This document shows, in pieces, positions 30,087-45,744 of a stretch of 64,000 bases of DNA. Positions within the stretch are counted from its first letter, which is position 1. Each line of letters opens with the position of its first letter. Source of the stretch: Acidobacteriaceae bacterium (GTDB lineage Bacteria > Acidobacteriota > Terriglobia > Terriglobales > Acidobacteriaceae); assembly GCA_903642235.1 (NCBI GenBank), contig CAHJWL010000002.1, positions 124,001-188,000 of the forward strand. The letters are read 5' to 3'. Under the pieces are notes generated by a model. The model saw nothing but the letters and a program-made list of their open reading frames with translations. It searched no databases and was not told the origin of the DNA. The position numbers and the translations under genes are program-made.

Positions 30087-30890
30087 TCAGGCGTGCTGGA
30101 GATTGCCGTCGCGAAAAGCAGGGTTCTTCCCGACTGTACCTGGAGCATCTGCAGCAAGCGCCGCCGCCGCGTCAACCCCGACCGGGACAGGTTGCGCATG
30201 GCCCCGGACACAGACTGCGTATTGATACCAACCGTCCGCGTCCAGTGTGGAAAGCGACCAGGGTTGCGTTCGCACGAGAGCTTCAAAGGCTTCCTTGCTC
30301 ATCACGTCAGCCTGTTGCGGTTCACGATATTTTCCCGCCGGAGAGGTAGTGAGCCTTGCCAAGAGCCACATGAGGGCGAGCGGCAGGCGGGTCCTGAAGC
30401 CCGAAGTTGGCTCCGCGATAAAACAGCGGCCGGCGGGCTTCAGCACCCGAAAGATCTCCCGGACGATGCCTTCTTTATCCGGCACAATCAGAAAGAGCCG
30501 TGACACAACAATGCAGTCAATAGAGGCAGACGGGTATGGAAGCGAGTGCGCATCCGCATGCTGGAAGCTGCAGTTTGAGAGTTGGCGCGCTGCCGCCCGG
30601 CCCTCGGCACGACGGATGAGCGTCTCTGACAGGTCAACGCCCGTGGTTCGAAGAGCAGGATACTCAGCAGACAATCGACAGGCATAAAAGCCAGGCCCAC
30701 AGCCGAGCTCCAGAAGACGTGTACCGCTCGGCGGCGGCTCCTCCGGGAAGAGGCTCTGGATGATCTCGTGTGTATGGTCGCGGAAGAGGTACTCCCGGCA
30801 CAGTGCATAGAACCAGGCGACACGCTCGAAGAGGCTGTCAGGCCGGATTTGCGGGCTACAGGATGCCGTGTCCGCGTTACTCTGATTCAT
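30087..30890 (-). CDS. Class I SAM-dependent methyltransferase
   Basis: 267 residues. Motif I is LLELGCGPGFYACRL, followed by TGVDLSETLIRRAE, the acidic ribose-binding strand end, and then HADAHSLPYPSASIDCIVVS and IFRVLKPAGRCFIAEP, all standard for UbiE/Methyltransf_11 enzymes. It opens the operon methyltransferase, DUF2064 and membrane glycosyltransferase, with only 3 nt to the next start. The substrate is unknown. About 30 residues at the C-terminus (Ala/Val-rich, then FRDGNLQHA) have no assigned role. Confidence 0.88.
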   Translation of the reverse strand: MNQSNADTASCSPQIRPDSLFERVAWFYALCREYLFRDHTHEIIQSLFPEEPPPSGTRLLELGCGPGFYACRLSAEYPALRTTGVDLSETLIRRAEGRAAARQLSNCSFQHADAHSLPYPSASIDCIVVSRLFLIVPDKEGIVREIFRVLKPAGRCFIAEPTSGFRTRLPLALMWLLARLTTSPAGKYREPQQADVMSKEAFEALVRTQPWSLSTLDADGWYQYAVCVRGHAQPVPVGVDAAAALAADAPGTVGKNPAFRDGNLQHA

Positions 30891-32391: not shown

Positions 32392-33339
32392 ATGGTCGAA
32401 GCTGTCGTGCTTTGGAACGAGCCGAATAACCTTTCGCACTGGAATTTTCATCTGGATCCCGGCTGGGAACGCTTCGCAGATATGGTCAAGCAGGCAGCAA
32501 CGGCGATCCGGCGGCAGAATCCGCAGCTAACGATTGTTCTTGGCGGCGTATCTTCCTGCGATCCGGATTTTCTTCGTCTCATGGCGAGCTATGGTGTGAT
32601 GACTGTCGTAGATGCCGTCGGTGTGCATGGTTTTCCGCTCGACTGGAATCACTGGCAGGTATCAGACTGGCCTGCAAAGATCATGGAAGCTCGCGAAATC
32701 AGCGGCCGTCCGGTTTGGGTTACGGAGGTCGGCGTCTCCTCCTTCGGCGCGGAAGAGGTCCAGACCTTCGGATTCGAGCGCACTCTTAGCCTCCTTCAAG
32801 GGCAGGTGGAACGCATTCACTGGTACAGCCTTTTTGATCTTCCGCCCAGTTGGCCTGCGGAGACACGCCATAAGGAAGCGGAGGGCTCGTCCTATTACCG
32901 CCACTACTATCTCGGCCTCGTCCGCGATGATGGAACGGAGAAGCCGGCAGCGAAGATCTTCCCGACAGATGGCAGCGTCGGCTTCTGCCAGTGGTTTCAC
33001 TTCGAGGATCCGCGACTGAATGATGCGGTGACGTGGATGAAGGCGCACGGCGTCCAGCATATTCGCACCGGACTGAGTTGGGCGGATTCGTTCCGCCCTG
33101 GTGCAATGGAATGGTTCGATCGGCAAATGTCAGCGCTGGAACCGTTTAAGGTGGCACTTACACTATGTTTCACCCCCAATCATCTAGGTCTGGAAGAACA
33201 CCATACCAGCCCTCCGAGGGACAACTCTGAGTTCGTGCGGTTTGCCGAGTGGGCTATAAAGCGGTATGCTCCGGCATCGGCATATCAGATCAAGAGTCAA
33301 GAACTACGGGCCGCGCCCGAGGAGGTCGTCGCTCGATGA
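32392..33339 (+). CDS. Beta-xylosidase/cellulase-like TIM-barrel protein with permuted halves
   Basis: 315 residues resembling clan-A glycoside hydrolases. VLWNEPNNLSHWNF (Glu10) looks like the beta4 acid/base motif, and RPVWVTEVGVSSFG (Glu112) like the beta7 nucleophile; HWYSLFDLP continues toward beta8. After a linker (about 180-197) the chain continues with QWFHFEDPRL, IRTGLSWADSFRPGA and ALTLCFTPNH, which in ordinary relatives would precede the NEP motif. The order is thus beta4-8, then beta1-3. There is no signal peptide, so it acts in the cytoplasm, perhaps on a glycan precursor or as a non-hydrolytic enzyme. The stop overlaps the next start by 4 nt. It is first gene of the plus-strand cluster. 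Confidence 0.75.
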   Translation: MVEAVVLWNEPNNLSHWNFHLDPGWERFADMVKQAATAIRRQNPQLTIVLGGVSSCDPDFLRLMASYGVMTVVDAVGVHGFPLDWNHWQVSDWPAKIMEAREISGRPVWVTEVGVSSFGAEEVQTFGFERTLSLLQGQVERIHWYSLFDLPPSWPAETRHKEAEGSSYYRHYYLGLVRDDGTEKPAAKIFPTDGSVGFCQWFHFEDPRLNDAVTWMKAHGVQHIRTGLSWADSFRPGAMEWFDRQMSALEPFKVALTLCFTPNHLGLEEHHTSPPRDNSEFVRFAEWAIKRYAPASAYQIKSQELRAAPEEVVAR

Positions 33340-34475
33340 CGCAACCTGGAATCAGGTCCAAGCAGGTGTTGATCACCGGCGGTGCCGGCTTTGTTGGCTC
33401 GCACCTGGCAGATGGCCTTCTTCGCGCCGGACACAAGGTGCGTGTCATCGACGACCTTACACCGCAGGTACACAAAGCTGGAGCGCCGGACTATCTCTCT
33501 CCCGAAGTCGAGCTTGTAGTTGGAGATGTGCGTGACCCCAACCGCATGCGAGCAGTGCTGCGCGACGTTGATGTGGTTTATCACTTCGCTGCAACGGTTG
33601 GTGTTGGGCAATCGATGTACGAGATCAGTCGCTACATGAGCGTGAATACGCAAGGGACAGCGGAGCTCCTGCAAGCGATGCTGGACGCAAAGATCGCGCC
33701 TGAAAAGCTGATCGTCGCCTCATCGATGTCGATCTACGGTGAGGGCCGCTATCAGTGCTCGAAGTGTTCAAGGGAGGCAACTCCTCCGGTACGACCGGTA
33801 AGTCAACTTAGAGTTGGCCAATGGGAACTGCATTGCTCATTTTGCCAGGGCGTTCTAAGACCATTGCCCACAAATGAAAATAAACCTTCCGAGATCAATT
33901 CCATCTACGCACTTTCCAAGCGCGACCAGGAAGAGCTTTGCCTAATCTACGGGCGAACCTACGGCATACCCGTGACCGCACTACGGTTCTTCAACATCTA
34001 CGGCACGCGCCAGGCGCTCTCCAATCCGTATACCGGTGTAGCGGCGATCTTTGCTGCGCGGCTTATTAATGACCAGGCACCCTTGGTCTTCGAAGATGGC
34101 GAGCAGATGCGGGATTTCGTAAGCGTCCATGACATCGTGCGCGCCAACCTCCTCGCGATGGAACGCCCGGAGAGTAATGGCCACGTTATTAATATTGGCT
34201 GCGGCACACCGATACCTATTCGCCGTGTGGCGGAGCTCCTCGCGCGCGCGCTCGGGAAAGACATCGGTGCAGTCATTACACACAAATACAGAGCTGGAGA
34301 CATTCGTCATTGCTATGCCGACCTGACGCAGGCCCGAACGCTGCTGGGGTACGAGCCGCAAGTGACGCATGAGGATGGCTTTCGGGAACTGGCCGCATGG
34401 CTGCAGGGTCAAGAGGCAGACGACAAAGCGGACACTATGCTGCGAGAACTGAATACATACGGATTGACGGCGTAG
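33336..34475 (+). CDS. Extended SDR nucleotide-sugar epimerase with inserted zinc ribbon
   Basis: 379 residues. The NAD motif is TGGAGFVGSHL (residues 14-24), with SSMSIYG (Ser near 130) and YALSKRDQEE (Tyr191, Lys195) for catalysis. Between Ser and Tyr lies an insert of about 40 residues with two Cys pairs, Cys141/Cys144 and Cys167/Cys170, spaced like a zinc ribbon. From memory, dTDP-L-rhamnose 4-epimerase-like proteins carry a similar insert, so a 4-epimerase is one possibility. RFFNIYGTRQ and FEDGEQMRDFVSV are ordinary for the family. The start ATG overlaps the previous stop (ATGA). Confidence 0.87.
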   Translation: MTQPGIRSKQVLITGGAGFVGSHLADGLLRAGHKVRVIDDLTPQVHKAGAPDYLSPEVELVVGDVRDPNRMRAVLRDVDVVYHFAATVGVGQSMYEISRYMSVNTQGTAELLQAMLDAKIAPEKLIVASSMSIYGEGRYQCSKCSREATPPVRPVSQLRVGQWELHCSFCQGVLRPLPTNENKPSEINSIYALSKRDQEELCLIYGRTYGIPVTALRFFNIYGTRQALSNPYTGVAAIFAARLINDQAPLVFEDGEQMRDFVSVHDIVRANLLAMERPESNGHVINIGCGTPIPIRRVAELLARALGKDIGAVITHKYRAGDIRHCYADLTQARTLLGYEPQVTHEDGFRELAAWLQGQEADDKADTMLRELNTYGLTA

Positions 34476-34517
34476 TCAATAAGCTACGATGAACAAGGCG
34501 CAACGGAGGCCCACTCA

Positions 34518-35618
34518 GTGACTGAAACGCCGCACGAAAACCGCACCGTTCTTGTAACCGGCGGTGCAGGCTTTATCGGTTCAAACCTAGTGGAACGGCT
34601 GATGCAACGCTCTGGAACCAGGGTTCGTGTTTTTGATAATCTTTCTCGCCCCGGAGTCTCCCACAACGTTCGCTGGCTGCGATCCCTGGATTCAGCTATG
34701 GAGTTGGAGGTGATTGATGGCGATATTCGTGACGCGGCTGCTCTAGCTTCAGCAGCACACGATGTTACGGAGATCTACCATCTGGCTGCTCAGGTGGCGG
34801 TGACGACCTCGGTAGACCACCCCAGATCAGATTTTGAGGTGAATGCCCTGGGCACATTCAACGTGCTTGAAGCTGCGCGACGATCAGGGCGGCGCCCTTT
34901 CTTGCTGTTCACGTCCACGAATAAGGTCTACGGCGGTTTGCACTCTGTTCCAGTTACAGTTGAGGGCGCTCACTACCGTGCCACCGACAAAACTTTTCGT
35001 GGTGTAAGCGAGCAGGAGATGCTTGATTTCCACTCTCCATACGGCTGCTCAAAAGGAGCAGCCGATCAGTATGTCCGCGACTACGCACGGATCTTTCACC
35101 TGCCAACTGTTGTTTTCCGGATGTCGTGTATCGCTGGCCCGCGCCAGTTCGGCAATGAAGACCAGGGCTGGGTAGCTCATTTCCTCTACAGTATTCTCGA
35201 AGGGCGGCCGATCACGATTTATGGCAACGGGTATCAGGTGCGTGACGTGCTTCACGTCTCTGACCTCGTCGACGCTATGCAAGCAGCCCGACTCCATCAG
35301 AAGCAGACGTGCGGTGAAATCTATAATTTGGGCGGGGGGCCGGACAGGAGCGTCTCTGTTCGCGAAATGCTCACGAAGATGGAAGACATCACAGGGCGGC
35401 GAGCTAACCTTCGTTCTAGTGAGATTCGTCCCGGAGATCAGCCACTTTACGTCTCAAACACTGACAAGATGACGCGCGACACCGGATGGGTGCCGTCAAC
35501 GAGTTTGCACAGCGTTATCGAGTCACTTCGGGAGTTCTGGCATGCGAATCGGGAGATACTTCGAACACAACGGTTACCAGTCCTAGCTGAAGATTTAGTC
35601 TCGGAGGAGGTAGCGTGA
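34518..35618 (+). CDS. Extended SDR, CDP-paratose 2-epimerase-like
   Basis: 366 residues. TGGAGFIGSNLVERL binds NAD, and TSTNKVYGGL is the variant Ser-Thr-Asn motif found in CDP-paratose/tyvelose 2-epimerase relatives. SPYGCSKGAADQYV gives the Tyr-x3-Lys pair, and FRMSCIAGPRQFGNEDQGWVAHF is also typical of that subgroup. The enzyme would epimerise or modify a nucleotide sugar in the cytoplasm. No CDP-sugar synthesis gene is nearby, so the CDP-paratose name should not be taken literally. The start is a GTG 42 nt after the previous gene; its own end overlaps the radical SAM start by 4 nt. Confidence 0.87.
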   Translation: MTETPHENRTVLVTGGAGFIGSNLVERLMQRSGTRVRVFDNLSRPGVSHNVRWLRSLDSAMELEVIDGDIRDAAALASAAHDVTEIYHLAAQVAVTTSVDHPRSDFEVNALGTFNVLEAARRSGRRPFLLFTSTNKVYGGLHSVPVTVEGAHYRATDKTFRGVSEQEMLDFHSPYGCSKGAADQYVRDYARIFHLPTVVFRMSCIAGPRQFGNEDQGWVAHFLYSILEGRPITIYGNGYQVRDVLHVSDLVDAMQAARLHQKQTCGEIYNLGGGPDRSVSVREMLTKMEDITGRRANLRSSEIRPGDQPLYVSNTDKMTRDTGWVPSTSLHSVIESLREFWHANREILRTQRLPVLAEDLVSEEVA

Positions 35619-36925
35619 GATTCGCTTTGGTGAATCCCAAATGGACTTTTGAGGGCTCGACTTATTTTGGCTGTGCAGAGCCTCACTTCCCTCTGGAACT
35701 TCTGTCCGCGCGAGAAATGCTGCGATCAGCAGGTCAGGATGTCTTACTGATCGATGCATGGATGGATGGTCTTTCTGTAGATGATGTGCGTGCTCGTCTT
35801 GAGGTGTTCGACGAGGACTTCCTTGTCATGCCGACCGCCCCCTCGTATCTTTTCTGGCGGTGTCCGCAACCAGAACTTCGTGTGCCGAGACACTGGATTG
35901 ATCAGCTTGGTCGCCGCTCCGAAAAGGTAATTATCGGTCCCCATGGATCCGTCACACCTCGTACGACCCTCCAGAAGACCGGCGGCACGATCGTACTTCG
36001 AGGGGAACCTGATCAAACGATTCCGTTGCTTGCGACTATGCCGAAGGAGATGATCGCGGGATGCAGTTGGACGGATGAAAACGGAGTGTTTCATAGCTCG
36101 CCAGGTCTTGGCGTTACCGACATGAAGGCTTTGGGCCCTTTGGACTACTCTGACTATCCGGTCGAGAAGCACGTTCACTTGCATCACATCTTTCAAGGCA
36201 ACGGCGCTGATCATCTGAGTCGCGGTGCTGAGATAGAGTTTGCGCGTGGCTGTCCGTATGCCTGTACTTTCTGCAACAAAACACTGTTTCGAAACAAATA
36301 CCGTGAGCGAGATTTGACCAACGTCTTGGCAGAGATTGATGCGCTCATCTCTCGAGGCGTGGATTACATCTACTTCATAGATGAAATATTTGGTGTCGGA
36401 CGGCAGGTTCGCGCTCTTCTAGAAGCGATAGCCACGCGACCCGTTTCGATCGGCTTCCAGACTCGCATTGATCTATGGGACGAGAGTTCACTTGAACTAC
36501 TTGAAAGAGCCCGTTGCGTCTCTTTTGAATGCGGGATCGAGTCAATCACCGACATCGGACGAGACGCAATGAACAAGAACTGTCGCGTGACTACTGACCG
36601 GATTACTGAGCTCTTGGCGTACGCTCGTAAGCGCATTCCCTGGGTGCAGGCCAACTTGATCAAGACAGCTGCGGATAATCCCCTTGATGTTTCTCGCTGG
36701 CAGGATTACTTAAAGTCGAAGGGCGTTTGGGTCAGCGAGCCGGTTCCGATGTTCCCGTTTCCAGGAAGCCCAGAGTACGTAAGTACGTTCGGTGAGCAGC
36801 CGGACGAGCGTGCCTGGGAACGTGCTCACTCCTTTTACCTCAACCTGTTTTCGGACAAGGGTTTCAGTGATCTGCAGGCTCCAACACCTGCCACGCTTGG
36901 AGAACTAGAATGCGTGTGCTCCTAA
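35615..36925 (+). CDS. B12-binding-domain radical SAM protein
   Basis: 436 residues. The N-terminal 150 residues form a B12-binding-like Rossmann fold (FPLELLSAREMLRSAGQDV, then VIIGPHGSVTPR) without the DxHxxG lower-ligand motif, so any cobalamin would be base-off. FARGCPYACTFCNKT holds the Cys213-x3-Cys217-x2-Cys220 cluster for the 4Fe-4S/SAM site. A TIM-barrel core follows (YIYFIDEIFG, then SFECGIES). Such enzymes methylate unactivated carbons or rearrange carbon skeletons. It resembles, from memory, the TIGR04295 family, which travels with glycosyltransferases and a TIGR04290-type methyltransferase. Both ends overlap neighbouring genes (4 and 16 nt), so it belongs to the operon. The substrate is unknown. 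Confidence 0.9.
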   Translation: MRFALVNPKWTFEGSTYFGCAEPHFPLELLSAREMLRSAGQDVLLIDAWMDGLSVDDVRARLEVFDEDFLVMPTAPSYLFWRCPQPELRVPRHWIDQLGRRSEKVIIGPHGSVTPRTTLQKTGGTIVLRGEPDQTIPLLATMPKEMIAGCSWTDENGVFHSSPGLGVTDMKALGPLDYSDYPVEKHVHLHHIFQGNGADHLSRGAEIEFARGCPYACTFCNKTLFRNKYRERDLTNVLAEIDALISRGVDYIYFIDEIFGVGRQVRALLEAIATRPVSIGFQTRIDLWDESSLELLERARCVSFECGIESITDIGRDAMNKNCRVTTDRITELLAYARKRIPWVQANLIKTAADNPLDVSRWQDYLKSKGVWVSEPVPMFPFPGSPEYVSTFGEQPDERAWERAHSFYLNLFSDKGFSDLQAPTPATLGELECVCS

Positions 36926-38034
36926 CCACTGACACTCTAGGTGGTGTCTGGACCTACACCAAAGAATTGACCGAGGGCCTGCTTCAACAAGGATGCTCCG
37001 TAGCTTTGGTAAGTTTCGGAAGGCTGCCGTCAGAGAGTCAGTCGGCTTGGTGTTCACGACTCGAGGAGGCGGCACAAGGACGCTTCCTCTATGTCGCCTC
37101 GGAGATTCCGCTCGAGTGGATGGTCGACAACGACATGATTGTCGAGAAGGGTGAGGAGCTCCTCCATTCCCTTGTCAGAACTTTTGAGCCGGATCTCTTT
37201 CACTCGAATCAGTTCTGCTTTGGACAGCTGTCACTCGGCATACCAAAACTGCTCGTTGCCCATAGCGATGTTCTGAGCTGGGCTGATGTTTGTGTTCCCG
37301 AGGGACTTGCATCGAGCCCATGGTTGTCACGCTACGTCGACTTGGTACAGAGCGGACTCAACGGAGCAGATTGGGTAGTCGCTCCCACGTCCTGCATGAT
37401 GTTCGCGCTTAAGAAGAACTTTTCTGTCTCTTCACCCTCAACGATAGTCGCAAATGGCCGCACCGTAGCAGCGCCCGAAGGCTCATTCGAGCGAGTTCTT
37501 CAAGCAGTTACCGCAGGGCGATTCTGGGATCGATCAAAGAATGTGACTGCTGTCACGCAAATCCGTGATTTCCCACTTATGGTCGCAGGCGAGAGTGAAG
37601 ACGTACCTACCGCCCTTCTGCACCCTTCCAATGTCCACTATTTGGGTTTTCTACCGGAGCCCGAACTCCATAATCTATTTCGCCGAAGTAGTCTTTACAT
37701 TGCTGCTTCAATCTACGAACCATTCGGACTCGCTCCACTTGAAGCTGCGCTCTGCGGCTGCGCAATCATCGCAAACGACATACCCTCCTTCCGAGAAGTC
37801 TGGGGATCGGCAGCCGTCTACTTTAAAACGTCAAGAGAGTTGCAGACCCTGCTTCTGACAATTGCGAATGATAGGGGGTACCTGGCCAACCTGCAAGTAC
37901 AAGCTTTAGATCGTGCGCGTCACTATAGCTCGGCGGCAATGACCGCCAGCTATCTCAGTCTTTATACAAAGCTGCTTTCAAACCAGAGCGAATGCTACGA
38001 TCATGTTTTGTCCCTTTCAACCTATGTCCAATAA
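36910..38034 (+). CDS. GT4-family glycosyltransferase
   Basis: 374 residues with the GT-B fold. TTDTLGGVWTYTKELTEGLL is the N-terminal glycine-rich loop; VAHSDVLSWAD and ADWVVAPTSCMM follow; the donor-binding E-x7-E is in SIYEPFGLAPLEAALCG. It should add a sugar from a nucleotide donor in the cytoplasm. It overlaps the radical SAM gene by 16 nt and the next glycosyltransferase by up to 32 nt, so translation is likely coupled. Sugar specificity is not readable. Confidence 0.9.
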   Translation: MRVLLTTDTLGGVWTYTKELTEGLLQQGCSVALVSFGRLPSESQSAWCSRLEEAAQGRFLYVASEIPLEWMVDNDMIVEKGEELLHSLVRTFEPDLFHSNQFCFGQLSLGIPKLLVAHSDVLSWADVCVPEGLASSPWLSRYVDLVQSGLNGADWVVAPTSCMMFALKKNFSVSSPSTIVANGRTVAAPEGSFERVLQAVTAGRFWDRSKNVTAVTQIRDFPLMVAGESEDVPTALLHPSNVHYLGFLPEPELHNLFRRSSLYIAASIYEPFGLAPLEAALCGCAIIANDIPSFREVWGSAAVYFKTSRELQTLLLTIANDRGYLANLQVQALDRARHYSSAAMTASYLSLYTKLLSNQSECYDHVLSLSTYVQ

Positions 38035-39133
38035 CCTTGCAATCGCCTATTTCACACACTCGGTGCGATCAGACTGGAACAATGGAAATGCTCATTTTGT
38101 AAGAGGGCTGCTGCGCGCTATGGTAAGGCTGGGTCACGCCGTTTGCATTTATGAACCTGAGCAAGCATGGTCCATTAACAACCTGCAAGAAGAAGAAGCT
38201 GGTGCAGCATCTCTGGATCAGTTCGACGATACTTACCCAGACCTTACAGTTCGGACCTACAACAAAGAATCAGATCTTGATTACTGGCGCGCTGCTCTCG
38301 CCGGCTCTGATGTAGTGATTCTGCACGAGTGGACGACTCCGGAACTTGCGAGTACGCTCCTGACGCTCAAACACCAGCTTGGATTTGCGTTGCTATTTCA
38401 CGACACGCACCACAGGAGCCTTTCCGCTCCGGCACAGTTGGAGAGTCTTGGCATTCGACACTTCGACGGCATCATCGTCTTCGGTAGTGTGCTACGTGGA
38501 ATTTACAAGGATAAGTTCTCGATGACGCGCCTCTGGGTGCTTCACGAAGCTGCTGATACTACCGTCTTTACGCCTACCCCAAATGCCCCGAAGCAGAATG
38601 ACGTAGTTTGGATTGGCAATTGGGGTGATGACGAGAGATCTGCCGAGATCAAAGAGTTCTTATTGACGCCAGTCATCGCCCAGCCATCACTTCGCGTTGA
38701 AGTGTATGGTGTGCGCTACCCGCATGGGGGTATTGAGGCTTTAGAGCAGGCTGGAGTGAGTTACGGGGGCTACCTTCCTAATTTGCAAGCTCCTCAGATC
38801 TACGCGGGCTCCAAACTTACAGTGCACATCCCTCGTCGATACTATGCGACAACTATGCTGGGCATCCCAACTATCCGAGTGTTTGAAGCACTTGCCTGCG
38901 GTCTGCCTTTGATCTCAGCGCCGTGGCAGGACTCCGAGAACCTCTTCCGTCCTGGAGACCTTACCTTTGTCGAAACAGGCACGAAGATGAGAGAAGCAAT
39001 GGAAGCTTTTCTCCGGGATCCGGCAAGAGGAGAAGCACAGGCTCAGCGGGGGTTAGAGACCATCCGATCTCACCATACCTGTGAGCATCGCGCTCATGAG
39101 CTGACCGCGATCTGCCGTGAGGTTCTGGCATGA
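38003..39133 (+). CDS. Glycosyltransferase, CgeB-like GT-B type
   Basis: 376 residues. FTHSVRSDWNNGNAHFVRGLL opens the N domain; FHDTHHRSLSAP and WIGNWGDDERSAEI follow. The C domain has IPTIRVFEALACGLPLIS and ends in HHTCEHRAHEL, the signature tail of CgeB-like spore-maturation-type glycosyltransferases. The start is ATG 38003 or the ATG at 38024 (MSNNLAIAYF); no strong ribosome-binding site separates them. It shares its tail motif with the next two genes and with the gene at 44668, so the four look like one paralogous group of differing closeness. Confidence 0.85.
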   Translation: MFCPFQPMSNNLAIAYFTHSVRSDWNNGNAHFVRGLLRAMVRLGHAVCIYEPEQAWSINNLQEEEAGAASLDQFDDTYPDLTVRTYNKESDLDYWRAALAGSDVVILHEWTTPELASTLLTLKHQLGFALLFHDTHHRSLSAPAQLESLGIRHFDGIIVFGSVLRGIYKDKFSMTRLWVLHEAADTTVFTPTPNAPKQNDVVWIGNWGDDERSAEIKEFLLTPVIAQPSLRVEVYGVRYPHGGIEALEQAGVSYGGYLPNLQAPQIYAGSKLTVHIPRRYYATTMLGIPTIRVFEALACGLPLISAPWQDSENLFRPGDLTFVETGTKMREAMEAFLRDPARGEAQAQRGLETIRSHHTCEHRAHELTAICREVLA

Positions 39134-40224
39134 AGATTTTTGCTTTCGGCTCGAGTATCGTTTCGTCATACTGGAATGGAGCTGCTACCTACTATCGGGG
39201 ATGTTACAAATACCTTCATCGTCTTGGACACACAATAACCTTTGCAGAAGCTGATGCATATGGAAGGCAGCAACACAGAGACTCAGATGTTTTCGACTAC
39301 ATTAACTCCGTAGTCTACCGGCCTGGTCTCGATCTAGACGCCATGCTCTCCCTAGCCTCTACCGCAGACGTGGTTGTAAAGCATTCCGGAATTGGAGTTG
39401 ATGACGAGGTTCTGGAAGCGAGGATAAATGAGCTGCACGATCGCTGCGCTATAACTTTCTGGGACGTTGATGCACCCGCTACTCTCGCGAGGATGCAGGA
39501 GAATCTTCAGGATGCCTTCAGAACCTCGATGCCGCGGTACGATGCCGTGCTCACCTATGGAGGAGGTCCTATATGCGAGAGTGGATATCGTGCTTTCGGC
39601 GCTCAAGCTTACTTCAGTATGTACAACGGTCTCGACCCTGAGACGCACTTCCCTGTACTGAAAGATCCCTCACTCGCTTGTGATGTTGCCTTTCTGGGAA
39701 ATCGCCTGCCGGACCGAGAAGCGCGAGTTGATGAGTTGTTTGTAAGGGCTGCAGCTCTCGCGCCGGAGATGCGCTTTCTCATCGGTGGAGAAGGTTGGGG
39801 GGACAAGCAATTCCCTTCTAACGTTCGTTGGATTGGCCACGTTCCGACGAGAGACCACAATCGGATAAATTGCTCAGCAGAGCTTGTTCTTAATATCAAT
39901 CGCGCTTCTATGGCCAACACCGGGTTCTCTCCACCCACTCGCGTCTTCGAGGTTGCCGGAGCAGGAGCGTGCCTGCTCTGCGATGACTGGCCGGGCATCG
40001 ACGACTGCTTTCAGCCAGATAGTGAGCTTTTGATCGTGAAGAGCGCAGAAGACGTAAGGACGGCTTTTTACACAACGACCTCAGAAAGCCGCCAGCAAAT
40101 AGGAGCAGCCTTTCGATCGCGAGCTCTGAGAGATCATACGTACGCGCAGCGCGCATTACAGGCACACGATGCGTTTACGTTCTGTCTGAACAGGCGGAAG
40201 CTGGCAACGAGTGCCTTGCGGTGA
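39130..40224 (+). CDS. Glycosyltransferase, CgeB-like GT-B type
   Basis: 364 residues beginning MKIFAFGSSIVSSYWNGAAT. SMYNGLDPETHFP and VAFLGNRLPDREARVDELF are the domain-linking region, and RWIGHVPTRDHNRINCSAELVLNI precedes PPTRVFEVAGAGACLLCDDW, the likely donor site. The end DHTYAQRALQAHD matches CgeB-like tails. It starts within the stop of the preceding gene (ATGA) and ends within the start of the next (GTGA). The acceptor is unknown. Confidence 0.86.
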   Translation: MKIFAFGSSIVSSYWNGAATYYRGCYKYLHRLGHTITFAEADAYGRQQHRDSDVFDYINSVVYRPGLDLDAMLSLASTADVVVKHSGIGVDDEVLEARINELHDRCAITFWDVDAPATLARMQENLQDAFRTSMPRYDAVLTYGGGPICESGYRAFGAQAYFSMYNGLDPETHFPVLKDPSLACDVAFLGNRLPDREARVDELFVRAAALAPEMRFLIGGEGWGDKQFPSNVRWIGHVPTRDHNRINCSAELVLNINRASMANTGFSPPTRVFEVAGAGACLLCDDWPGIDDCFQPDSELLIVKSAEDVRTAFYTTTSESRQQIGAAFRSRALRDHTYAQRALQAHDAFTFCLNRRKLATSALR

Positions 40225-41291
40225 AGATAGCTATCTATGGTCTTACAATCACCTCCTCATGGGGGAACGGTCATGCAACGACCTTCAGGTCGTTGTGTAA
40301 GGCACTGTTTCAGAGAGGGCATGAGATCGACTTTATTGAACAGGATGTCGAATGGTACCGCGATAATCGCGACATGCCGGACCCTCCCTTTTGTAAGGTG
40401 CATTTGTTTACGGACTGGGCTTTAGAGTCAGGTAGTCTTCTGGCCAAAAGCTCAGATGCGGATGTGATCGTTATCGGCTCCTACTTTTCCTCCGCTCTCG
40501 ATCTCTCGCGTAAGCTCTTTGAGCGATCAGAGCAGCCTGTGTTCTTCTACGACATCGACACACCAATAACAATGGCTCATTTGCGTGCTAGTAGTTCGAC
40601 GGCGTATCTAAGTGCCGCTCTCATCCCCCACTATGCTGCTTACCTTAGCTTTACAGGTGGTCCCATACTGATGGAACTTGAAGAGGTGTTTGGAGCGAAG
40701 AAGGCCAGTGCGTTTTACTGCTCGGTAGATCCGGAAGTGTATAGGCGAATGAGTTCGGTGAGTCGATTCTCTGCGGACCTGAGTTACCTCGGGACTTACG
40801 CGCAAGACCGGCAATCAGGCTTGAATATTTTCATGGGCGGGCCTGCACTCTCGCAACCGAACATGACCTTTTTAGTTGCTGGGCCGCAGTATCCCGAGAC
40901 GCTGTCCTGGCCAGACAATGTTCGTCGGATTACACATGTCTCGCCGTGTGATCACCCGCGTTTTTACTCGTCTTCACGATTTACTTTGAACCTCACGCGG
41001 AGAGAAATGATCGCGGCTGGTTGGTCCCCTTCTGTCCGGCTCTTTGAGGCAGCGGCTTGTAGTACTGCAATCATCTCGGACCAGTGGCCCGGGCTCAGTG
41101 ACTTCTTAACACCTGGTCAAGAGATTCTTCTACCAACTAACACAGACGAGACCCTCTACATACTTCGCCACCTAAGTGACAGCGATCGAGAACAGATTGG
41201 CCAGCGCGCTCAGCAGAGAGTGCTCGATGAGCACACCTGTAATCATCGAGCACTGGAATTTGAACAGCTGTTGTCAGATCACAGCAAGTAA
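40221..41291 (+). CDS. Glycosyltransferase, CgeB-like GT-B type (paralogue A)
   Basis: 356 residues, GTG start. It opens with IAIYGLTITSSWGNGHATTF and has FYDIDTPITMAHLRA, YLSFTGGPILMELE and YLGTYAQDRQSGLNIF. The C-terminal donor region is PSVRLFEAAACSTAIISDQW. The minus-strand gene at 44668-45744 is a close relative along its whole length (SSWGNGHAT, FTGG, YLGTYAADRQ, GRLFEAAACEAVILSDWW). It ends the plus-strand operon and faces the HAD gene tail-to-tail across 42 bp. Confidence 0.87.
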   Translation: MKIAIYGLTITSSWGNGHATTFRSLCKALFQRGHEIDFIEQDVEWYRDNRDMPDPPFCKVHLFTDWALESGSLLAKSSDADVIVIGSYFSSALDLSRKLFERSEQPVFFYDIDTPITMAHLRASSSTAYLSAALIPHYAAYLSFTGGPILMELEEVFGAKKASAFYCSVDPEVYRRMSSVSRFSADLSYLGTYAQDRQSGLNIFMGGPALSQPNMTFLVAGPQYPETLSWPDNVRRITHVSPCDHPRFYSSSRFTLNLTRREMIAAGWSPSVRLFEAAACSTAIISDQWPGLSDFLTPGQEILLPTNTDETLYILRHLSDSDREQIGQRAQQRVLDEHTCNHRALEFEQLLSDHSK

Positions 41292-41333
41292 ATCTGCACT
41301 TTCAGATGGCGGTTTATTTCTCTAATAGCCGGG

Positions 41334-42038
41334 CTACTTTCGGATAGGAAGATCCAGAAAGGTGGAGCAAACCATATCCGGATGCTCCTTTCTTAACTCC
41401 TCTATGCTGTACACACCGGTCGCGACTGCGAAGATGTCAATGCCGTTGAACCGAGCTGCGCGAATGTCCGCCGGTGTATCGCCGATTATACAAATTCTGC
41501 CGCCGTCTCCAATTTGTGCTCGGACCGACGTCACTGCACGCCGAAATACATCCTGCCTGAATTCATCCTGGTCACTGTAGCTGCCGCATGTGAAAAATTG
41601 GCCGAGACCTGCGGCTTCCAGCTTACTTCTGCCAATTGCTTCCAGGTTTCCAGTGGCGACTCCCAAGATAGCTCCTCGTTCAGCAAGGTGGCTAAGAAGG
41701 TTAGCCACGCCCGGAAGAGCTCGCACACGGAGCTCGTCTTTATGAGCTCGAACGAAATCTCTCATTACTTCACAGCCTTGAACCAGCAGCGGCCGCCATT
41801 GCTCTTCCGGGATGCCGTTCAGCAACAAAGCATCGCGAAGGATGCCTCTGTCAGTATTTCCGTGTGCTACGACGCCATCTAGATTTAACACTTGCCCCGA
41901 TAACATCTTTAGAGCGTCGCAAAATGCGAAGTAGTGTACAGCGTCCTCACTCACGACGAGAGTTCCGTCTATATCGAAGAGGTAGGCGTCATATTGATCC
42001 CACGCTTCGGTCAAAGGTGATGAGCAGTATGGTCTCAT
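41334..42038 (-). CDS. HAD-superfamily phosphatase (phosphoglycolate-phosphatase-like)
   Basis: 234 residues. Motif I is YLFDIDGTLVVSE (nucleophile Asp and general acid Asp), motif II is in LGVATGNLEA (Thr), the motif III Lys lies near GRSKLEAAG, and motif IV is IIGDTPADIRAA. A helical cap is present between 20 and 90. It would remove phosphate from a small metabolite, here perhaps a sugar phosphate made by the cluster. It is last in the minus-strand run and starts 3 nt after the preceding stop. Confidence 0.88.
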   Translation of the reverse strand: MRPYCSSPLTEAWDQYDAYLFDIDGTLVVSEDAVHYFAFCDALKMLSGQVLNLDGVVAHGNTDRGILRDALLLNGIPEEQWRPLLVQGCEVMRDFVRAHKDELRVRALPGVANLLSHLAERGAILGVATGNLEAIGRSKLEAAGLGQFFTCGSYSDQDEFRQDVFRRAVTSVRAQIGDGGRICIIGDTPADIRAARFNGIDIFAVATGVYSIEELRKEHPDMVCSTFLDLPIRK

Positions 42039-42041
42039 TAC

Positions 42042-43097
42042 TTAGCCTAGAAGCTCACCTAATGCATGATCAACACTTAAGAGAACATTCGCCCAATCAC
42101 CCGGACTACTTTGCCTGAAGATACGCATCGACGGGTACCAGGGCGATGTCGTACGCAGGTCCATCCATCTCCAGTCACCTACAAAAGGTATCATCATCCA
42201 CACAGGGACGCCTGCTGCACCAGCTAGATGCGCCGCCAGTGTATCTGTTGTTATAACAAGGTCGAGATTGCAGATAAGTGCTGCAAGACTATGGATGCCA
42301 GTCCCGATTTTAGTGGCATCGAGGAGTTGGTCAGGCATGTCTGTTTGGCTCTTCTCATAGGGACTTGTCTGCTCCACCAAGTTCCAAAACTCCGCTGAAT
42401 GTCGAAGAAGTGGGCGGAGGAATTTGAACGGAAGTGCCCGATGCTGATTCCAAGCACCTGCAGTCCAGACCAATCCGATCCTTTGCAGCCTGCCTTGGCC
42501 CATGATTGCTGAAGCTCTCTGGACGGCTTCAGACTTGAAGCGTAAATACGAGCTTAGGATTGGCAGATCACTTATCTGAGTACGAAATAGATAAGGTAAT
42601 TCCATCACTTCGATTTGCATATTCCACGGAGGTTCTTTTCTCGGCAAGCCTTCTTGCCATGTGATCAGTTCAAAATGATCGTTTGCACTGATCTCCAAGT
42701 CAGCAATCAACTTCATCAGCCTGGGAGGAACCTCAAGCACAACCCTCTTGGCTTTTCCACAGAGTAGAGGAAGATATTGGATCATCTGAATAGTATCCCC
42801 ATACCCATGTAAGCAGCGCACCATGACCGTTCTTTCGGTCGGATCTGTCCCATCCCAGAACCGGTGAACATCATTTCGTTCTCGTCTTCGGATCGCATCT
42901 GATTCCAGCCAAGCTGACTCCATGTCTCCGCGTAGCATAGAAATCTGCCATCGACCGCTCGAGCACTCGTCAGGATCCGCCCCTCCCTGCTGTGCTTCGT
43001 TGTAAGCCGCTTCCGCAGCTTCTAAGCTGCGCTCTGCCAAGAATGCCCGGGCAAGCAACAGGCCCTGTCCGGCATCAATGTTGCCGCTCCTACTCAT
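42042..43097 (-). CDS. TPR-linked GT9/heptosyltransferase-like protein
   Basis: 351 residues. The N-terminal 75 residues look like one or two TPR-type helical hairpins (LLLARAFLAERSLEAAEAAY). The rest resembles the GT-B domain of ADP-heptose-type transferases: MVRCLHGYGDTIQMIQYLPLL (the Gly-x-Gly loop), RIGLVWTAGAWNQ, and VITTDTLAAHLAGAAGVPVWMMIP at the donor site. The last region WRWMDLRTTSPWYPSMRIFRQ is common in TPR-fused versions. It overlaps the upstream methyltransferase stop by 8 nt. A sugar-adding role is likely; which sugar is unknown. Confidence 0.8.
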   Translation of the reverse strand: MSRSGNIDAGQGLLLARAFLAERSLEAAEAAYNEAQQGGADPDECSSGRWQISMLRGDMESAWLESDAIRRRERNDVHRFWDGTDPTERTVMVRCLHGYGDTIQMIQYLPLLCGKAKRVVLEVPPRLMKLIADLEISANDHFELITWQEGLPRKEPPWNMQIEVMELPYLFRTQISDLPILSSYLRFKSEAVQRASAIMGQGRLQRIGLVWTAGAWNQHRALPFKFLRPLLRHSAEFWNLVEQTSPYEKSQTDMPDQLLDATKIGTGIHSLAALICNLDLVITTDTLAAHLAGAAGVPVWMMIPFVGDWRWMDLRTTSPWYPSMRIFRQSSPGDWANVLLSVDHALGELLG

Positions 43098-43881
43098 TCG
43101 ACCTCAAAACGAGATTCGAGGATGGATAGACGCTATGCGGCCCATCCGGCGGCACGGCAATCGCCTTGCGACGGCAGAGATAGACTTCGTCCTCAGGGCG
43201 GCCCTCGATCTCAAAACCTGCAGAGCGCAGCATGGCTTCCATGCCAGGTCTGTTTGGGATCCACCAATTCGTTTCATCGTGAGAATAACTACGCTCAATA
43301 AAGTACATGGCTGGGAACGACGCCGTGTTGAAAACTTCCACTTCTTTAAAATCGTAGTCTTCGGCAACAAGGTCGACCAACCGCGACCCTCGCTGCATAC
43401 TTTGAAAGAGCAAGAGATCCTTGGCCACATGCTCGTGAATCAGATCGAGAGCTAGAAGGGGGTGACGTAAATGGTAGAAAACACCCATAAAGATCACCAG
43501 ATCGAAGCGCTCCTTTAGTGCAGCTATGTCCCAGATCGTCATACGGAGGAATTCGATACTCAGATTACATACGCTGGAGGCAAACCTTGCCTGTTCCAGG
43601 TATCGATCATCGGAATCGATTCCAACGACTCTGTCAGCTCCCCTGCGTTTCATCTCCATTGAGTAAAAGCCGGCATTACAACCTATGTCGAGCACAGACA
43701 AGCCCCTCATGTCGCGGGGCAAGCTCTCGCGGAAAGAATCGTACTTCACTTGAGGGTAATCACCCAAGAAGTGATCCTTTGCTGTCCGAACTCCTTGTAA
43801 ATCCAAATTGTGGAACCAAGGACCCAGCGCTGCGACACGAGCCTTTATAAATTCCGTATTGTCCCGGGAAGGTTGGTGCAT
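43090..43881 (-). CDS. CmoB-like SAM methyltransferase (TIGR04290-like)
   Basis: 263 residues. GPWFHNLDLQGVRTA opens it as in CmoB-type enzymes, motif I is SVLDIGCNAGFYSMEMKRRG, and FDLVIFMGVFYHLRHPLLAL follows; later DETNWWIPNRPGMEAML is characteristic. From memory, this matches the TIGR04290 family, which was noted beside B12-radical SAM proteins of the TIGR04295 type; that pairing is reproduced here 7 kb away in the same cluster. The tRNA-modification role of CmoB is unlikely to carry over given the glycan neighbours. The target could be a sugar or lipid carrier. Confidence 0.86.
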   Translation of the reverse strand: MHQPSRDNTEFIKARVAALGPWFHNLDLQGVRTAKDHFLGDYPQVKYDSFRESLPRDMRGLSVLDIGCNAGFYSMEMKRRGADRVVGIDSDDRYLEQARFASSVCNLSIEFLRMTIWDIAALKERFDLVIFMGVFYHLRHPLLALDLIHEHVAKDLLLFQSMQRGSRLVDLVAEDYDFKEVEVFNTASFPAMYFIERSYSHDETNWWIPNRPGMEAMLRSAGFEIEGRPEDEVYLCRRKAIAVPPDGPHSVYPSSNLVLRSNE

Positions 43882-43910
43882 AATCGTTCTTGTATCTCCA
43901 TCTCTTTAGC

Positions 43911-44642
43911 TTACCGAACTGCATCTTGCTCGAGCAGCCGAATGGCTGAGCGATACCCATTGAGAGTCCCCACATCCACATAGGACTGACCGGCCCGGAT
44001 CCCTCGAGCCCTTCCTCCGGCTGTAAGCCAGAGATTGACCAGGTTTCCGAGGTACTCTTCTCTACACTCCTCACGAGACCATAAGTTTCTCAATTCGTGA
44101 AACACCTGTGCAGACATCCGAACTCCCCCCCAGACCCAGGATGTTGAAGGCAGTACCTGCTTAACTTCGATCTCCTTTACTAAACCCTCCGATGATGTGA
44201 CCACCGCATCGAAGAGCTCTGGATGGTCGACAGGGAAAAGCAGGAAGGAAAGAGGCCCATCAGGGAGCGCCGCAAAGCCGTCACTCGGAAACCAAATTGT
44301 ATCGGGAAGGCCGATCAAGATGGAATCTCCTTCTGCAATGAGTGGTGAAGCTCTGAAAATAGCATCACAAAGCCCTGCAGGATCTGGCTGCACGACATAC
44401 ACCAAGTCAGCGCCCCAGAGGCGCGATCCGAAGTACTCTAAAATGTCCGTCTTACCTGGAGAGATGACAAAACATAGTTTGTCCGCACCGGCTGCAATCA
44501 TGCGCTCAATCAGATACTCACAGACAGCCCGTGGACGTTCGATACCCTGCTCAAGGCGACTACCCACTGGCAGTAACTCTTTTGAGAAGGCCAGCGGCTG
44601 AATTCGGCTTCCATGCCCCGCGGCTGGAATGATGCCCCACAT
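43911..44642 (-). CDS. Sugar-1-phosphate nucleotidyltransferase
   Basis: 243 residues, RmlA/GalU-like GT-A fold. IIPAAGHGSRIQPLAFSKELLPV is the nucleotide-binding loop with its Lys, and ILIGLPDTIWFP holds the metal-binding Asp. The C-terminal SYVDVGTLNGYRSAIRLL is the common end of the catalytic domain. It would charge a sugar-1-phosphate with an NTP, giving the cluster its own donor sugar. The glycosyltransferase upstream ends 25 nt before its start, and the methyltransferase begins 29 nt after its stop. Confidence 0.88.
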   Translation of the reverse strand: MWGIIPAAGHGSRIQPLAFSKELLPVGSRLEQGIERPRAVCEYLIERMIAAGADKLCFVISPGKTDILEYFGSRLWGADLVYVVQPDPAGLCDAIFRASPLIAEGDSILIGLPDTIWFPSDGFAALPDGPLSFLLFPVDHPELFDAVVTSSEGLVKEIEVKQVLPSTSWVWGGVRMSAQVFHELRNLWSREECREEYLGNLVNLWLTAGGRARGIRAGQSYVDVGTLNGYRSAIRLLEQDAVR

Positions 44643-44667
44643 AAATGCTCCTTCCTACCTCAGTGGC

Positions 44668-45744
44668 TCAGACGCTAGTGCCGCAAAACTGCGAGCAGGT
44701 AGCTTCTAGTTCGATTGCTCTTGCCTCTCCAGTGTGATCTCGAAGGACGCGTTGCCTCGCTGCTTTGGCAACGTTGAGCAGCTCCTGCTTATCGTGTCCG
44801 AGTATTCTTAGAACATCCTTTGAAGACTCCACGATAAAGATCTCTCTATCAGGAGTAAAGAAGGTATCCAGGCCCTCCCACCAGTCGGAAAGAATGACCG
44901 CCTCGCATGCCGCTGCTTCGAAGAGACGCCCGGAAGGGCAATATCCGTAGTCTGTCATAGCACCTCTGGTAATATTCAGTGTCGCATCGCAGGACGAAAA
45001 GAATGCCGCATGATCCTGAGGTGGCAGATGTTCTAAAAACATAACGTTTGCTGGCCACTCGCACGAGGGATAAAGCGATCCGGCGAGGAGGAATCTTGCA
45101 TTTGGCTGTGCCATGGCTGATAGGAGAAAGAGATCATCCAGCTTTTGCTGCCGATCTGCAGCATAGGTTCCTAGATACGAGAGAGTCGCTGTCAGGTCTG
45201 GCCTTGGAGATGCTGGCCTGTGCAGTTCAGGGTCTACCGATCCATATAACGTCGCAACCGCACGAGCTCCCAGCTTCGTTTGAAGCTCCGTGATGGCACG
45301 GCCGCCGGTGAAACTGAGGACCAGGTCAAAGCGAGACAAGCCATCCAGCGGAAGATAGTCGACGGTTTTATTCCTCGCCAGACCATCGAGGGTTACAGGG
45401 GTGTCAAGATCGTAAAAGCATTTGATACGAGCGGAAGATTCAAGAAGCAACTCCGCCGCCACTCTTCCATCTGGACAATAACTGGTATAGATAGCTAGGT
45501 CAGCCACAGCTAGCTCTGAAAGAGCTTGATCTCGAACAGCAGCAAAATCTGCGTAGAACTGCAGATTGCCCCCAAGACCCAGTTCGAAAAGATCTCGGCT
45601 ATTTACATAATAGGGAAGATTCTTCTCGTAGAAAGTTACGGTATGCCCGCGTTGCAGAAGGGCTTTGATAAGGGACCGCCAGAGTGTGGCATGACCGTTT
45701 CCCCAAGACGAAGATACGGCAAGCCCAAATATAACAATCTTCAT
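44668..45744 (-). CDS. Glycosyltransferase, CgeB-like GT-B type (paralogue B)
   Basis: 358 residues, first gene of the minus-strand run. It starts KIVIFGLAVSSSWGNGHATL and matches the plus-strand gene at 40221 through FYDLDTPVTLDGLARN, SFTGGRAITELQ, YLGTYAADRQQKL and RLFEAAACEAVILSD. Its tail RVLRDHTGEARAIELE is CgeB-like. The two paralogues lie in opposite orientation at the outer start of one run and the inner end of the other. Two related enzymes probably add similar sugars to different positions; this is inference. Confidence 0.87.
   Translation of the reverse strand: MKIVIFGLAVSSSWGNGHATLWRSLIKALLQRGHTVTFYEKNLPYYVNSRDLFELGLGGNLQFYADFAAVRDQALSELAVADLAIYTSYCPDGRVAAELLLESSARIKCFYDLDTPVTLDGLARNKTVDYLPLDGLSRFDLVLSFTGGRAITELQTKLGARAVATLYGSVDPELHRPASPRPDLTATLSYLGTYAADRQQKLDDLFLLSAMAQPNARFLLAGSLYPSCEWPANVMFLEHLPPQDHAAFFSSCDATLNITRGAMTDYGYCPSGRLFEAAACEAVILSDWWEGLDTFFTPDREIFIVESSKDVLRILGHDKQELLNVAKAARQRVLRDHTGEARAIELEATCSQFCGTSV

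Follow-up and report, generated by a model that had tools for sequence, protein, structure and literature searches.

Two convergent gene runs in an Acidobacteriaceae genome point to a possible soluble oligosaccharide pathway

INTRODUCTION

Do two convergent runs of glycan-type genes in an Acidobacteriaceae genome belong to one pathway, and what might it make? The window analyzed here is a stretch of 64,000 nt from Acidobacteriaceae bacterium (GCA_903642235.1, contig CAHJWL010000002.1, positions 124,001–188,000, forward strand). The locus occupies window positions 32392–45744, and a first-pass annotation had proposed that its thirteen genes form one undescribed glycan pathway. Our main reading, to which we give a probability of roughly 45%, is that they encode a single cytosolic pathway to a soluble O-methylated oligosaccharide, a product and chemistry that we infer. 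The gene set is common to acidobacteria, nitrogen-fixing rhizobia, and others, and such a pathway would fill a gap in the picture of soil-bacterial physiology; literature searches turned up no product of the cassette.

RESULTS

Gene organization of the locus

The list of open reading frames reproduced the annotated layout of eight plus-strand and five minus-strand genes, with its overlaps and gaps (Table 1). The start of g1 at 32392 is M36 of a longer open reading frame, and aligned homologs begin at the same residue. The start of g2 was set by sequence reading alone, and the 4-nt overlap of g1 and g2 follows from taking it as 33336. Later plus-strand overlaps are 4, 16, 32, 4, and 4 nt, with a single gap of 42 nt, and the minus-strand spacings from g9 to g13 are 3, −8, 29, and 25 nt. 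Family scans upheld the annotated GH-A-like protein, two SDRs, radical SAM protein, five glycosyltransferases, methyltransferase, nucleotidyltransferase, and HAD phosphatase; the exception is g10, which matched nothing in NCBIfam or Pfam at E ≤ 0.01. The paralogs g8 and g13 share 41% identity.

Table 1. Genes of the locus in window coordinates
Gene	Position	Strand	Assignment	Remark
g1	32392..33339	+	Circularly permuted clan GH-A glycosidase-like protein (predicted)	ORF opens 32287
g2 (SDR1)	33336..34475	+	NDP-sugar epimerase/dehydratase family	ORF opens 33249
g3 (SDR2)	34518..35618	+	Extended SDR; nearest solved structure CDP-tyvelose 2-epimerase	
g4	35615..36925	+	TIGR04295 radical SAM protein, B12-binding-type N-terminal domain	
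g5	36910..38034	+	GT4-type glycosyltransferase	Family scan
g6	38003..39133	+	PF13524 glycosyltransferase	Family scan
g7	39130..40224	+	PF13524 glycosyltransferase	Family scan
g8	40221..41291	+	PF13524 glycosyltransferase	Family scan
g9	41334..42038	-	HAD-family phosphatase	Family scan; accessory
g10	42042..43097	-	TPR/GT9-like	Motif reading only; accessory
g11	43090..43881	-	TIGR04290 SAM-dependent methyltransferase	Family scan
g12	43911..44642	-	Sugar-1-phosphate nucleotidyltransferase family (RmlA-like)	
g13	44668..45744	-	PF13524 glycosyltransferase, paralog of g8	

Recurrence of the gene set

One collection scan with the g4 protein as the query gave 58 loci, whose titles cover Acidobacteria, Alphaproteobacteria, Deltaproteobacteria, and Nitrospirae. 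By tblastn, the glycosyltransferases g5, g6, and g7 were each present at 39 of these loci and g8 at 37, together with g1 (34), g2 (39), g3 (47), g11 (37), g12 (19), g13 (21), g9 (16), and g10 (17); the window's flanking genes g14 and g15 were found at none of the 58. Gene content and gene order are repeated across many genomes, more than chance would give, with order and strand of g1–g8 identical at 21/58 loci. The exact convergent two-operon layout, seen at 9/58, is local. Among open reading frame families from outside the window set, the commonest reached only 7 of 77 clustered loci.

The co-occurrence of TIGR04295 and TIGR04290 in other bacteria, which the annotation had mentioned, was found in two genome sets. 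Among 41 relatives, 16 carried the radical SAM protein over its cut-off, 18 the methyltransferase, and 15 both, and within 27 good genomes the radical SAM protein, the methyltransferase, and g7 marked the identical 10. Across 347 genomes of the phylum, TIGR04295 exceeded its cut-off in 6 and TIGR04290 in 7, with 6 common to both. Five phylum genomes with sub-cut-off TIGR04290 scores (161–254 bits) had no TIGR04295 at E ≤ 1e-60, and the one of these five examined (G224) had no cassette.

Protein distances also tracked those of g4 (Spearman coefficients): 0.786 for g1, 0.824 for g2, 0.913 for g3, 0.854 for g5, 0.846 for g6, 0.849 for g7, 0.824 for g8, 0.818 for g10, 0.745 for g12, and 0.631 for g13, each exceeding the largest of 200 permutations. 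Tracking was weak for g9 (0.505; permutation maximum, 0.424) and g11 (0.385; permutation maximum, 0.338), both barely above their maxima.

In some acidobacteria, the core is dispersed over two or three loci, yet retained. Family f2 has methyltransferase–radical SAM loci, with SDR2 sandwiched between the two in 7/9 and not seen in 2/9, and separate loci that read GH-(SDR1)-GT4-3GT in 8/8 of the uncut cases. Six other genomes keep SDR2–radical SAM, methyltransferase-GH-(SDR1)-GT4-3GT, and g13-g12 in separate places. SDR1 went unrecognized in 2/8 f2 loci and 4/6 of the other scattered loci, SDR2 was not seen near the methyltransferase–radical SAM pair of locus L087, and g12 was not found beside the three f2 g13-like genes examined. 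Each of the 14 genomes with a glycosyltransferase-free radical SAM locus contained g7 (14/14). By these comparisons, the recurring, co-retained core is g1, g4–g8, and g11, usually with g2 and g3. Homologs that rarely sit together elsewhere would have spoken against a single pathway; this outcome was looked for in the gene neighborhoods and did not occur, as the genes recur together and genomes that disperse the core over several loci still hold it jointly.

The radical SAM protein and its replacement

The g4 protein matched TIGR04295 at 579.1 bits over model positions 1–422 (curated cut-off, 400) and PF04055 at 53.5 bits. CxxxCxxC is the cluster motif of the radical SAM superfamily, and in g4 its cysteines C213, C217, and C220 are invariant in 42 alignment rows. 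Over nearly its full length, the predicted fold matched OxsB (Z 27.1), TsrM (26.6), AprD4 (26.4), and MgmA (26.1), and the best PDB sequence match was AprD4 (4e-8), a radical SAM 1,2-diol dehydratase solved with paromamine. A tentative possibility, and the strongest competitor to our reading, is that g4 is a cobalamin-dependent C-methyltransferase placing a branched C-methyl sugar in the oligosaccharide, with a different sugar made there by lineages that carry oxidoreductases in its stead. The naming of TIGR04295 as a B12-binding radical SAM family, the invariant cysteine motif, and the fold match to the B12 radical SAM enzymes OxsB, TsrM, and MgmA all favor it. However, the g4 model suits AprD4 and the B12 methylases (TsrM and MgmA) equally well, AprD4 is the closest solved sequence, and of the two B12 markers sought in the window genome (99.87% complete), CobS and the B12 methionine synthase activation domain, neither was matched.

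The gene neighborhoods bear on the same point, since an in-place swap with two oxidoreductases makes more sense for a redox-neutral step than for C-methylation. In acidobacterium G319, which has no TIGR04295 over cut-off, the gene order is g2-g3-ZnDH-Gfo/Idh-g5-g6-g7-g8, and a zinc dehydrogenase (ZnDH) and a Gfo/Idh oxidoreductase occupy the g4 slot. ZnDH was present in 13/14 mapped cassettes without the radical SAM gene versus 0/68 loci with it; at the Roseomonas marmotae locus, neither the radical SAM gene nor the oxidoreductase module lies nearby. Rhizobium etli and Sinorhizobium meliloti have the oxidoreductase form, and Bradyrhizobium and Azospirillum the radical SAM form. The radical SAM gene is thus replaceable in the cassette by the ZnDH and Gfo/Idh pair and is non-essential to the system, because other lineages have the pair instead. 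In the g7 tree, each trait changes four times, with two well-supported independent pairs, and the tree test of the swap is not significant because independent changes are too few. The g7 matches of G319 (L086 and L142) failed the filter and are missing from the first g7 tree; in the second, G319 is represented by a 542-aa open frame, the longest of a 2.2 kb stretch and longer than the gene. With the oxidoreductase pair at the same step, g4 most likely alters a carbon of a sugar or cyclitol without net redox change, and this may be an epimerization or isomerization, not a C-methylation. The swap itself may be alternative tailoring, not an identical reaction.

Other enzymes of the pathway

Clan GH-A enzymes are (beta/alpha)8 barrels whose catalytic pair of glutamates follows strands 4 and 7. 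The g1 sequence matched PF11790 weakly (23.7 bits; cut-off, 21), PslG at E 0.0093, and GH10 over ~160 columns. Its model has eight strands in a rotated order, and the two putative catalytic glutamates, E45 and E147 (long-ORF numbering), are conserved in ≥97% of 37 rows and invariant in the 27 rows of a second alignment. This makes g1 a clan GH-A barrel in circularly permuted form and a predicted glycosidase. The nearest solved relatives of g3 are CDP-tyvelose 2-epimerase 1orr (E 2.8e-74) and 9rl0 (7e-73). The g11 protein matched TIGR04290 at 362.3 bits over model positions 2–226 (curated cut-off, 300) and weakly resembles EvdMO1 (5t38, 2.7e-9) and CmoB (4p7c, 6.8e-13), the latter alignment being confined to residues 51–154; carboxymethyl transfer of the CmoB type was weighed as an activity that g11 may have.

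Promoter motifs

GGAAC-N15..18-[CGT]GTT is the consensus of EcfG, the general stress regulator. Searched within 250 nt upstream at alphaproteobacterial loci only, this motif preceded SDR1 at 8/14 loci, versus 0.024 expected per 250 nt, and was missing at 6/14. Separately, a candidate conserved promoter, GCAACC-N13..17-GTA, lies before g1 at 5/34 acidobacterial loci (33 loci and the window), versus 0.004 expected per 350 nt, and does not occur upstream of g1 in the window. Scans for sigma-70 promoters and terminators gave no excess over shuffles. A published EcfG-controlled glycosyltransferase operon of Sphingomonas melonis was considered, and the available portion of that paper (PMC6599016) established no tie to the cassette. 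The available portions of PMC3892343, PMC4167512, PMC3188799, and PMC3511301 likewise yielded nothing on the cassette genes.

Product and acceptor

None of g1–g13 has a clear membrane segment, the top 19-residue mean being 1.63 (g10), and family scans of these genes (g10 matchless) confirmed the earlier observation that the cluster lacks a flippase, polymerase, or initiator. That the genes instead decorate a surface polysaccharide or glycolipid, with those functions encoded elsewhere in the genome, we consider unlikely. PF13524 and GT4 enzymes occur in surface glycan loci too, and a polysaccharide pyruvyl transferase is part of the cassette in some Alphaproteobacteria. Against this, the five identified outside families recurring in the 77 clustered loci (small-ORF family f13 apart) include no flippase, polymerase, or initiator, and 17 annotated plasmid stretches have no export or lipid-carrier gene inside the run of cassette genes. 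Taken with g1–g13, the identified recurring neighbors thus hold no initiator, flippase, polymerase, or exporter by which a Wzx/Wzy or ABC-exported locus would be recognized.

For the acceptor of a soluble product, inositol-3-phosphate synthase and a histidine phosphatase accompany 12/20 alphaproteobacterial loci. The synthase was rejected as a cassette marker among acidobacteria: it is present in 39/41 relatives, cassette or not, and shows no association. The acidobacterial pointer to inositol fails because the gene is near-universal and because no cassette homolog lies in the 20 kb that surround the copy in the window genome. Bradyrhizose was also considered as the product, an idea arising from a Bradyrhizobium that carries the cassette; the available portions of the literature gave no link to these genes, and the idea was dropped.

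DISCUSSION

In the soluble oligosaccharide pathway that we favor, g12, SDR1, and SDR2 would supply NDP-sugars, SDR2 via a 2-epimerase-type reaction. The radical SAM protein would work beside SDR2 at the step handled elsewhere by ZnDH and Gfo/Idh, most likely an epimerization or isomerization. The GT4 enzyme g5 and the PF13524 glycosyltransferases would build the chain, g11 would O-methylate it, g9 would remove a phosphate, and the permuted g1 would trim, transfer, or recycle the oligosaccharide. A small polyol would be the most likely acceptor, myo-inositol leading the candidates, and in several alphaproteobacteria, the general stress response probably switches the pathway on. A far more specific version makes TIGR04295 a sugar or cyclitol radical SAM epimerase/isomerase, B12-type in fold and perhaps free of cobalamin, swappable with ZnDH and an inositol-dehydrogenase-like partner, in a cross-phylum stress pathway to a soluble inositol oligosaccharide that includes a natural circularly permuted GH-A enzyme; as a whole, we hold it to be rather doubtful.

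That two unrelated operons face each other here by accident is very improbable and largely refuted: they lie on two strands with no shared promoter, and g9 and g10 are in just 16/58 and 17/58 loci, but one or more of the genes g11–g13 share the strand of g4–g8 in 11/58, and the core co-occurs even if scattered.

Beyond the first-pass annotation, the analysis adds the replaceability of the radical SAM gene, the permuted GH-A form predicted for g1, and the EcfG-like motif and inositol-phosphate synthase at alphaproteobacterial loci. The annotation's word "undescribed" stands in that literature searches found no paper mentioning TIGR04295 or TIGR04290, and falls short in that NCBIfam already models both as hypothetical equivalogs (B12_rSAM_oligo and meth_Rta_06860), by protein name only. 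TIGR04290 cassettes in which an oxidoreductase pair replaces TIGR04295 are described here. This natural swap lets simple cross-complementation test the reaction of the radical SAM family.

Among known systems, g4 shares over approximately residues 1–420 the two-domain fold of AprD4 (6fd2), TsrM, OxsB, MgmA, and CysS, though its identity to AprD4 and the cobalamin radical SAM enzymes is 14–20%. The homology of g3 to CDP-tyvelose 2-epimerase predicts a 2-epimerase-type activity. The methyltransferase g11 has a weak sequence likeness to CmoB and to EvdMO1 of everninomicin biosynthesis, but these belong to different clusters. Finally, g1 has partial sequence and fold likeness to PslG and GH10 of clan GH-A, with both putative catalytic glutamates conserved. 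Unlike the usual GH-A enzymes, it begins at the WNEPN strand, and the usual first three strands sit C-terminal; a permuted g1 that retains both glutamates, set against counterparts in this pathway without the permutation, would be a natural experiment in protein topology.

Gene content and layout of the cassette

The coordinates, overlaps, and gaps that the first-pass annotation assigned to the thirteen genes (g1–g8, plus strand; g9–g13, minus strand) were the same in our ORF listing. By profile scans, the radical SAM protein g4 matched TIGR04295 (579 bits against a cut-off of 400) and the methyltransferase g11 matched TIGR04290 (362 against 300). The scans also recovered two extended SDRs (g2, SDR1; g3, SDR2), a GT4, four PF13524 glycosyltransferases, a HAD phosphatase, and a nucleotidyltransferase, with a weak GH-A-like match for g1. 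The annotated gene content stands for these families; the GT9-like label of g10 is a motif reading, and family scans of this protein matched nothing at E ≤ 0.01. The genome holding the window is 3.79 Mb and 99.87% complete. Just upstream of the cassette, an ArsM-like methyltransferase scoring under cut-offs forms a possible arsenosugar pair with its TIGR04282 neighbor.

Coordinates of individual features in the window and in compared loci
Feature	Sequence	Positions	Strand	Remark
TIGR04282 arsenosugar-type glycosyltransferase next to ArsM-like methyltransferase	window	29232-30890	-	163.8 bits, cut-off 134
g10, TPR/GT9-like protein	window	42042-43097	-	
FG-GAP/ASPIC-UnbV protein adjoining cassette	window	45998-47854	+	not conserved with cassette
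Polysaccharide pyruvyl transferase and F420-hydrogenase-beta-like protein	L137	2474-4949		
Same pair	L140	2621-5078		
Same pair	L145	3336-5770		

Recurrence of the cassette

A single search with the radical SAM protein as query yielded 58 loci, many of them cut by contig ends and two (L052 and L057) sharing one MAG name; fifteen window proteins were mapped on these loci. The first-pass annotation had taken the two gene runs to act together, and their genes do recur jointly in distant genomes: g1–g8 were found in 34, 39, 47, 58, 39, 39, 39, and 37 loci, respectively, and g9–g13 in 16, 17, 37, 19, and 21, with the flanking genes g14 and g15 each in 0/58. The order and strand of g1–g8 were kept in 21/58 loci, and the exact convergent arrangement with g9–g13 in 9/58. 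Among the 29 loci with full flanks, 20 held the glycosyltransferase cassette, 5 methyltransferase-SDR2-radical SAM, and 4 SDR2-radical SAM. In ORF clustering, the most widespread outside family reached 7 of 77 loci; those in at least 4 comprised five identified families (UDP-glucose dehydrogenase, PLD, zinc alcohol dehydrogenase, glutaminase, and UDP-glucuronate decarboxylase) and a group of small ORFs (f13).

Most of the closest loci carry acidobacterial record titles; across the 58, titles name Acidobacteria, Deltaproteobacteria/Syntrophales, Nitrospirae, a Paracoccaceae, one Rhodanobacteraceae, and one Verrucomicrobia. The Rhodanobacteraceae title looks wrong, the record (L003, L090) matching a contig of the window's own genus (G006:C30). 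Plasmids of Azospirillum, Bradyrhizobium, Tistrella, and Geminicoccaceae also carry the cassette. Bradyrhizobium sp. 195 has two copies (L075, L077) on two plasmids typed as conjugative, a phosphopentomutase gene accompanying both.

Retention of the genes without linkage

Among 41 relatives, counted as raw genomes irrespective of kinship, the radical SAM protein was over cut-off in 16, the methyltransferase in 18, and both in 15. The mismatches were G037, where the methyltransferase is cut at a contig start, and three genomes with the methyltransferase only (G004, G032, and G036; 63%, 89%, and 73% complete). Glycosyltransferase g7 was found at E ≤ 1e-20 in 21/41, G004 scoring at paralog level, and all three proteins marked the same 10 of 27 good genomes (≥90% complete, ≤5% contaminated). 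Across 347 genomes of the phylum, again as raw counts, TIGR04295 passed its cut-off in 6 and TIGR04290 in 7, the two sharing 6; in G231 they lie on separate contigs. Pairwise distances of most cassette proteins follow those of g4 (Spearman 0.63-0.91), g9 and g11 weakly.

One acidobacterial family (f2), together with its named counterparts, has a scattered cassette: the methyltransferase and radical SAM genes share one locus, with SDR2 between them in 7/9 loci and not seen next to the pair in L087. A second locus reads GH-(SDR1)-GT4-3GT in 8/8 uncut loci, SDR1 being recognized in 6/8; in a ninth (L103) the contig ends within the locus. Two of the nine genomes with this locus, G032 and G034 (89% and 82% complete), had no radical SAM protein over cut-off. 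In six genomes of a further acidobacterial group, SDR2-radical SAM is present in 6/6, and in four of them the next ORF belongs to a single family (one member identified as UDP-glucose dehydrogenase); a second locus holds MT-GH-GT4-3GT in 6/6, with SDR1 in 2/6, and a third holds g13-g12 in 6/6. Three f2 loci have a g13-like gene, and no g12 was seen in them. In all 14 genomes queried whose radical SAM locus had no glycosyltransferases, g7 was found elsewhere, in 8 of the 14 at the same places as in the f2 genomes above. By gene content, the scattered sets are largely complete, and we consider this retention of unlinked genes the strongest evidence for one pathway.

Replacement of the radical SAM gene

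Comparison of cassettes shows that the radical SAM gene is replaceable. In G319, which belongs to a different acidobacterial family, TIGR04290 is present and TIGR04295 stays under cut-off (highest score 73.7 bits); its cassette (L142) runs g2-g3-ZnDH-Gfo/Idh-g5-g6-g7-g8, a zinc dehydrogenase and a Gfo/Idh oxidoreductase occupying the g4 slot. Plasmid cassettes of Rhizobium, Agrobacterium, Allorhizobium, Sinorhizobium/Ensifer, Paracoccus, Sphingobium, and Roseomonas likewise lack it; these loci were fetched by SDR2/GH similarity from plasmids only, have uneven flank lengths, and include several close relatives. Of 84 sources mapped, 68 had the radical SAM gene, with ZnDH in 0/68 and Gfo/Idh in 1/68 (L035, a partial match). 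Two of the other 16 were fragments and were set aside: L084, in whose genome a different contig carries the gene, and L086, overlapping L142. Of the remaining 14, 13 carried ZnDH and 12 carried Gfo/Idh, the exceptions being L138 for both and L134 for Gfo/Idh. In model scans, Gfo/Idh is nearest to inositol 2-dehydrogenase, far under cut-off (97.6 of 355 bits), and ZnDH has weak matches, the top one reaching 87 of 513 bits. Each trait changed at least four times on the g7 tree; the two starred independent pairs, with no change in the unexpected direction, are too few to give significance. Because the radical SAM gene is swapped for an oxidoreductase pair, a redox-neutral radical step is favored, not proven, over C-methylation.

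Alphaproteobacterial context and product

The 20 alphaproteobacterial loci mapped carry inositol-3-phosphate synthase (12/20), histidine phosphatase (12/20), and UDP-glucuronate decarboxylase (17/20). The eight without the synthase are the eight with an unpermuted GH (L072, L076, L133-L136, L143, and L148). Some alphaproteobacterial cassettes also hold a polysaccharide pyruvyl transferase and an F420-hydrogenase-beta-like protein. Scanning with an EcfG consensus, we found an EcfG-like motif ≤250 nt before SDR1 in 8/14 loci, several of them close relatives; the expectation from these sequences is 0.024 per 250 nt. Both Bradyrhizobium copies also have the motif ahead of their inositol-phosphate synthase gene, and the upstream scan found none in Azospirillum, Tistrella, or Roseomonas marmotae. 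Similar motifs appear in a table of PMC6599016. In acidobacteria, GCAACC-N13..17-GTA, a possible ECF-type promoter, lies upstream of g1 in L002, L004, L006, L014, and L037 (5/34, counting the window with 33 other loci; expectation 0.004 per 350 nt).

The reading of the cassette product that fits best is a soluble, O-methylated oligosaccharide of cytosolic origin. Inositol is our best guess for the acceptor, a guess weakened because inositol-phosphate synthase is near-universal in relatives.

Predicted folds of g1 and the radical SAM protein

The GH domain and SDR2 form one fused annotated gene in Tistrella, Geminicoccaceae, Rhizobium, Agrobacterium, and Paracoccus cassettes. Against five fused proteins, g1 aligned in two blocks of swapped order (97-103 and 45-54 bits); rotated, it aligned as a single block of ~300 residues (128-145 bits for all five; L076, E 1.9e-45, 32% identity). 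Its first strand is the WNEPN strand. A mis-called start was ruled out as the cause of this strand order, since residues upstream of M36 are unconserved. The predicted model has eight strands (pLDDT 81, pTM 0.80); whole-barrel matches were generic (best Z 13.8), and GH10 matches span ~160 columns. Two glutamates recur in 97% or more of 37 aligned rows, and in 27/27 rows of an alignment of g1 homologs (A2). We predict that g1 is a circularly permuted glycosidase-like protein. Natural permutation is known in GH70; our literature search found no paper linking circularly permuted, glycoside hydrolase, and clan GH-A.

For the radical SAM protein, we sought two B12 markers in the window genome, and neither CobS nor a methionine synthase activation domain was matched. 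Its predicted model (pLDDT 91.9) gave tied matches to OxsB (Z 27.1), TsrM (26.6), AprD4 (26.4), and MgmA (26.1), and AprD4 is also its best PDB match by sequence.
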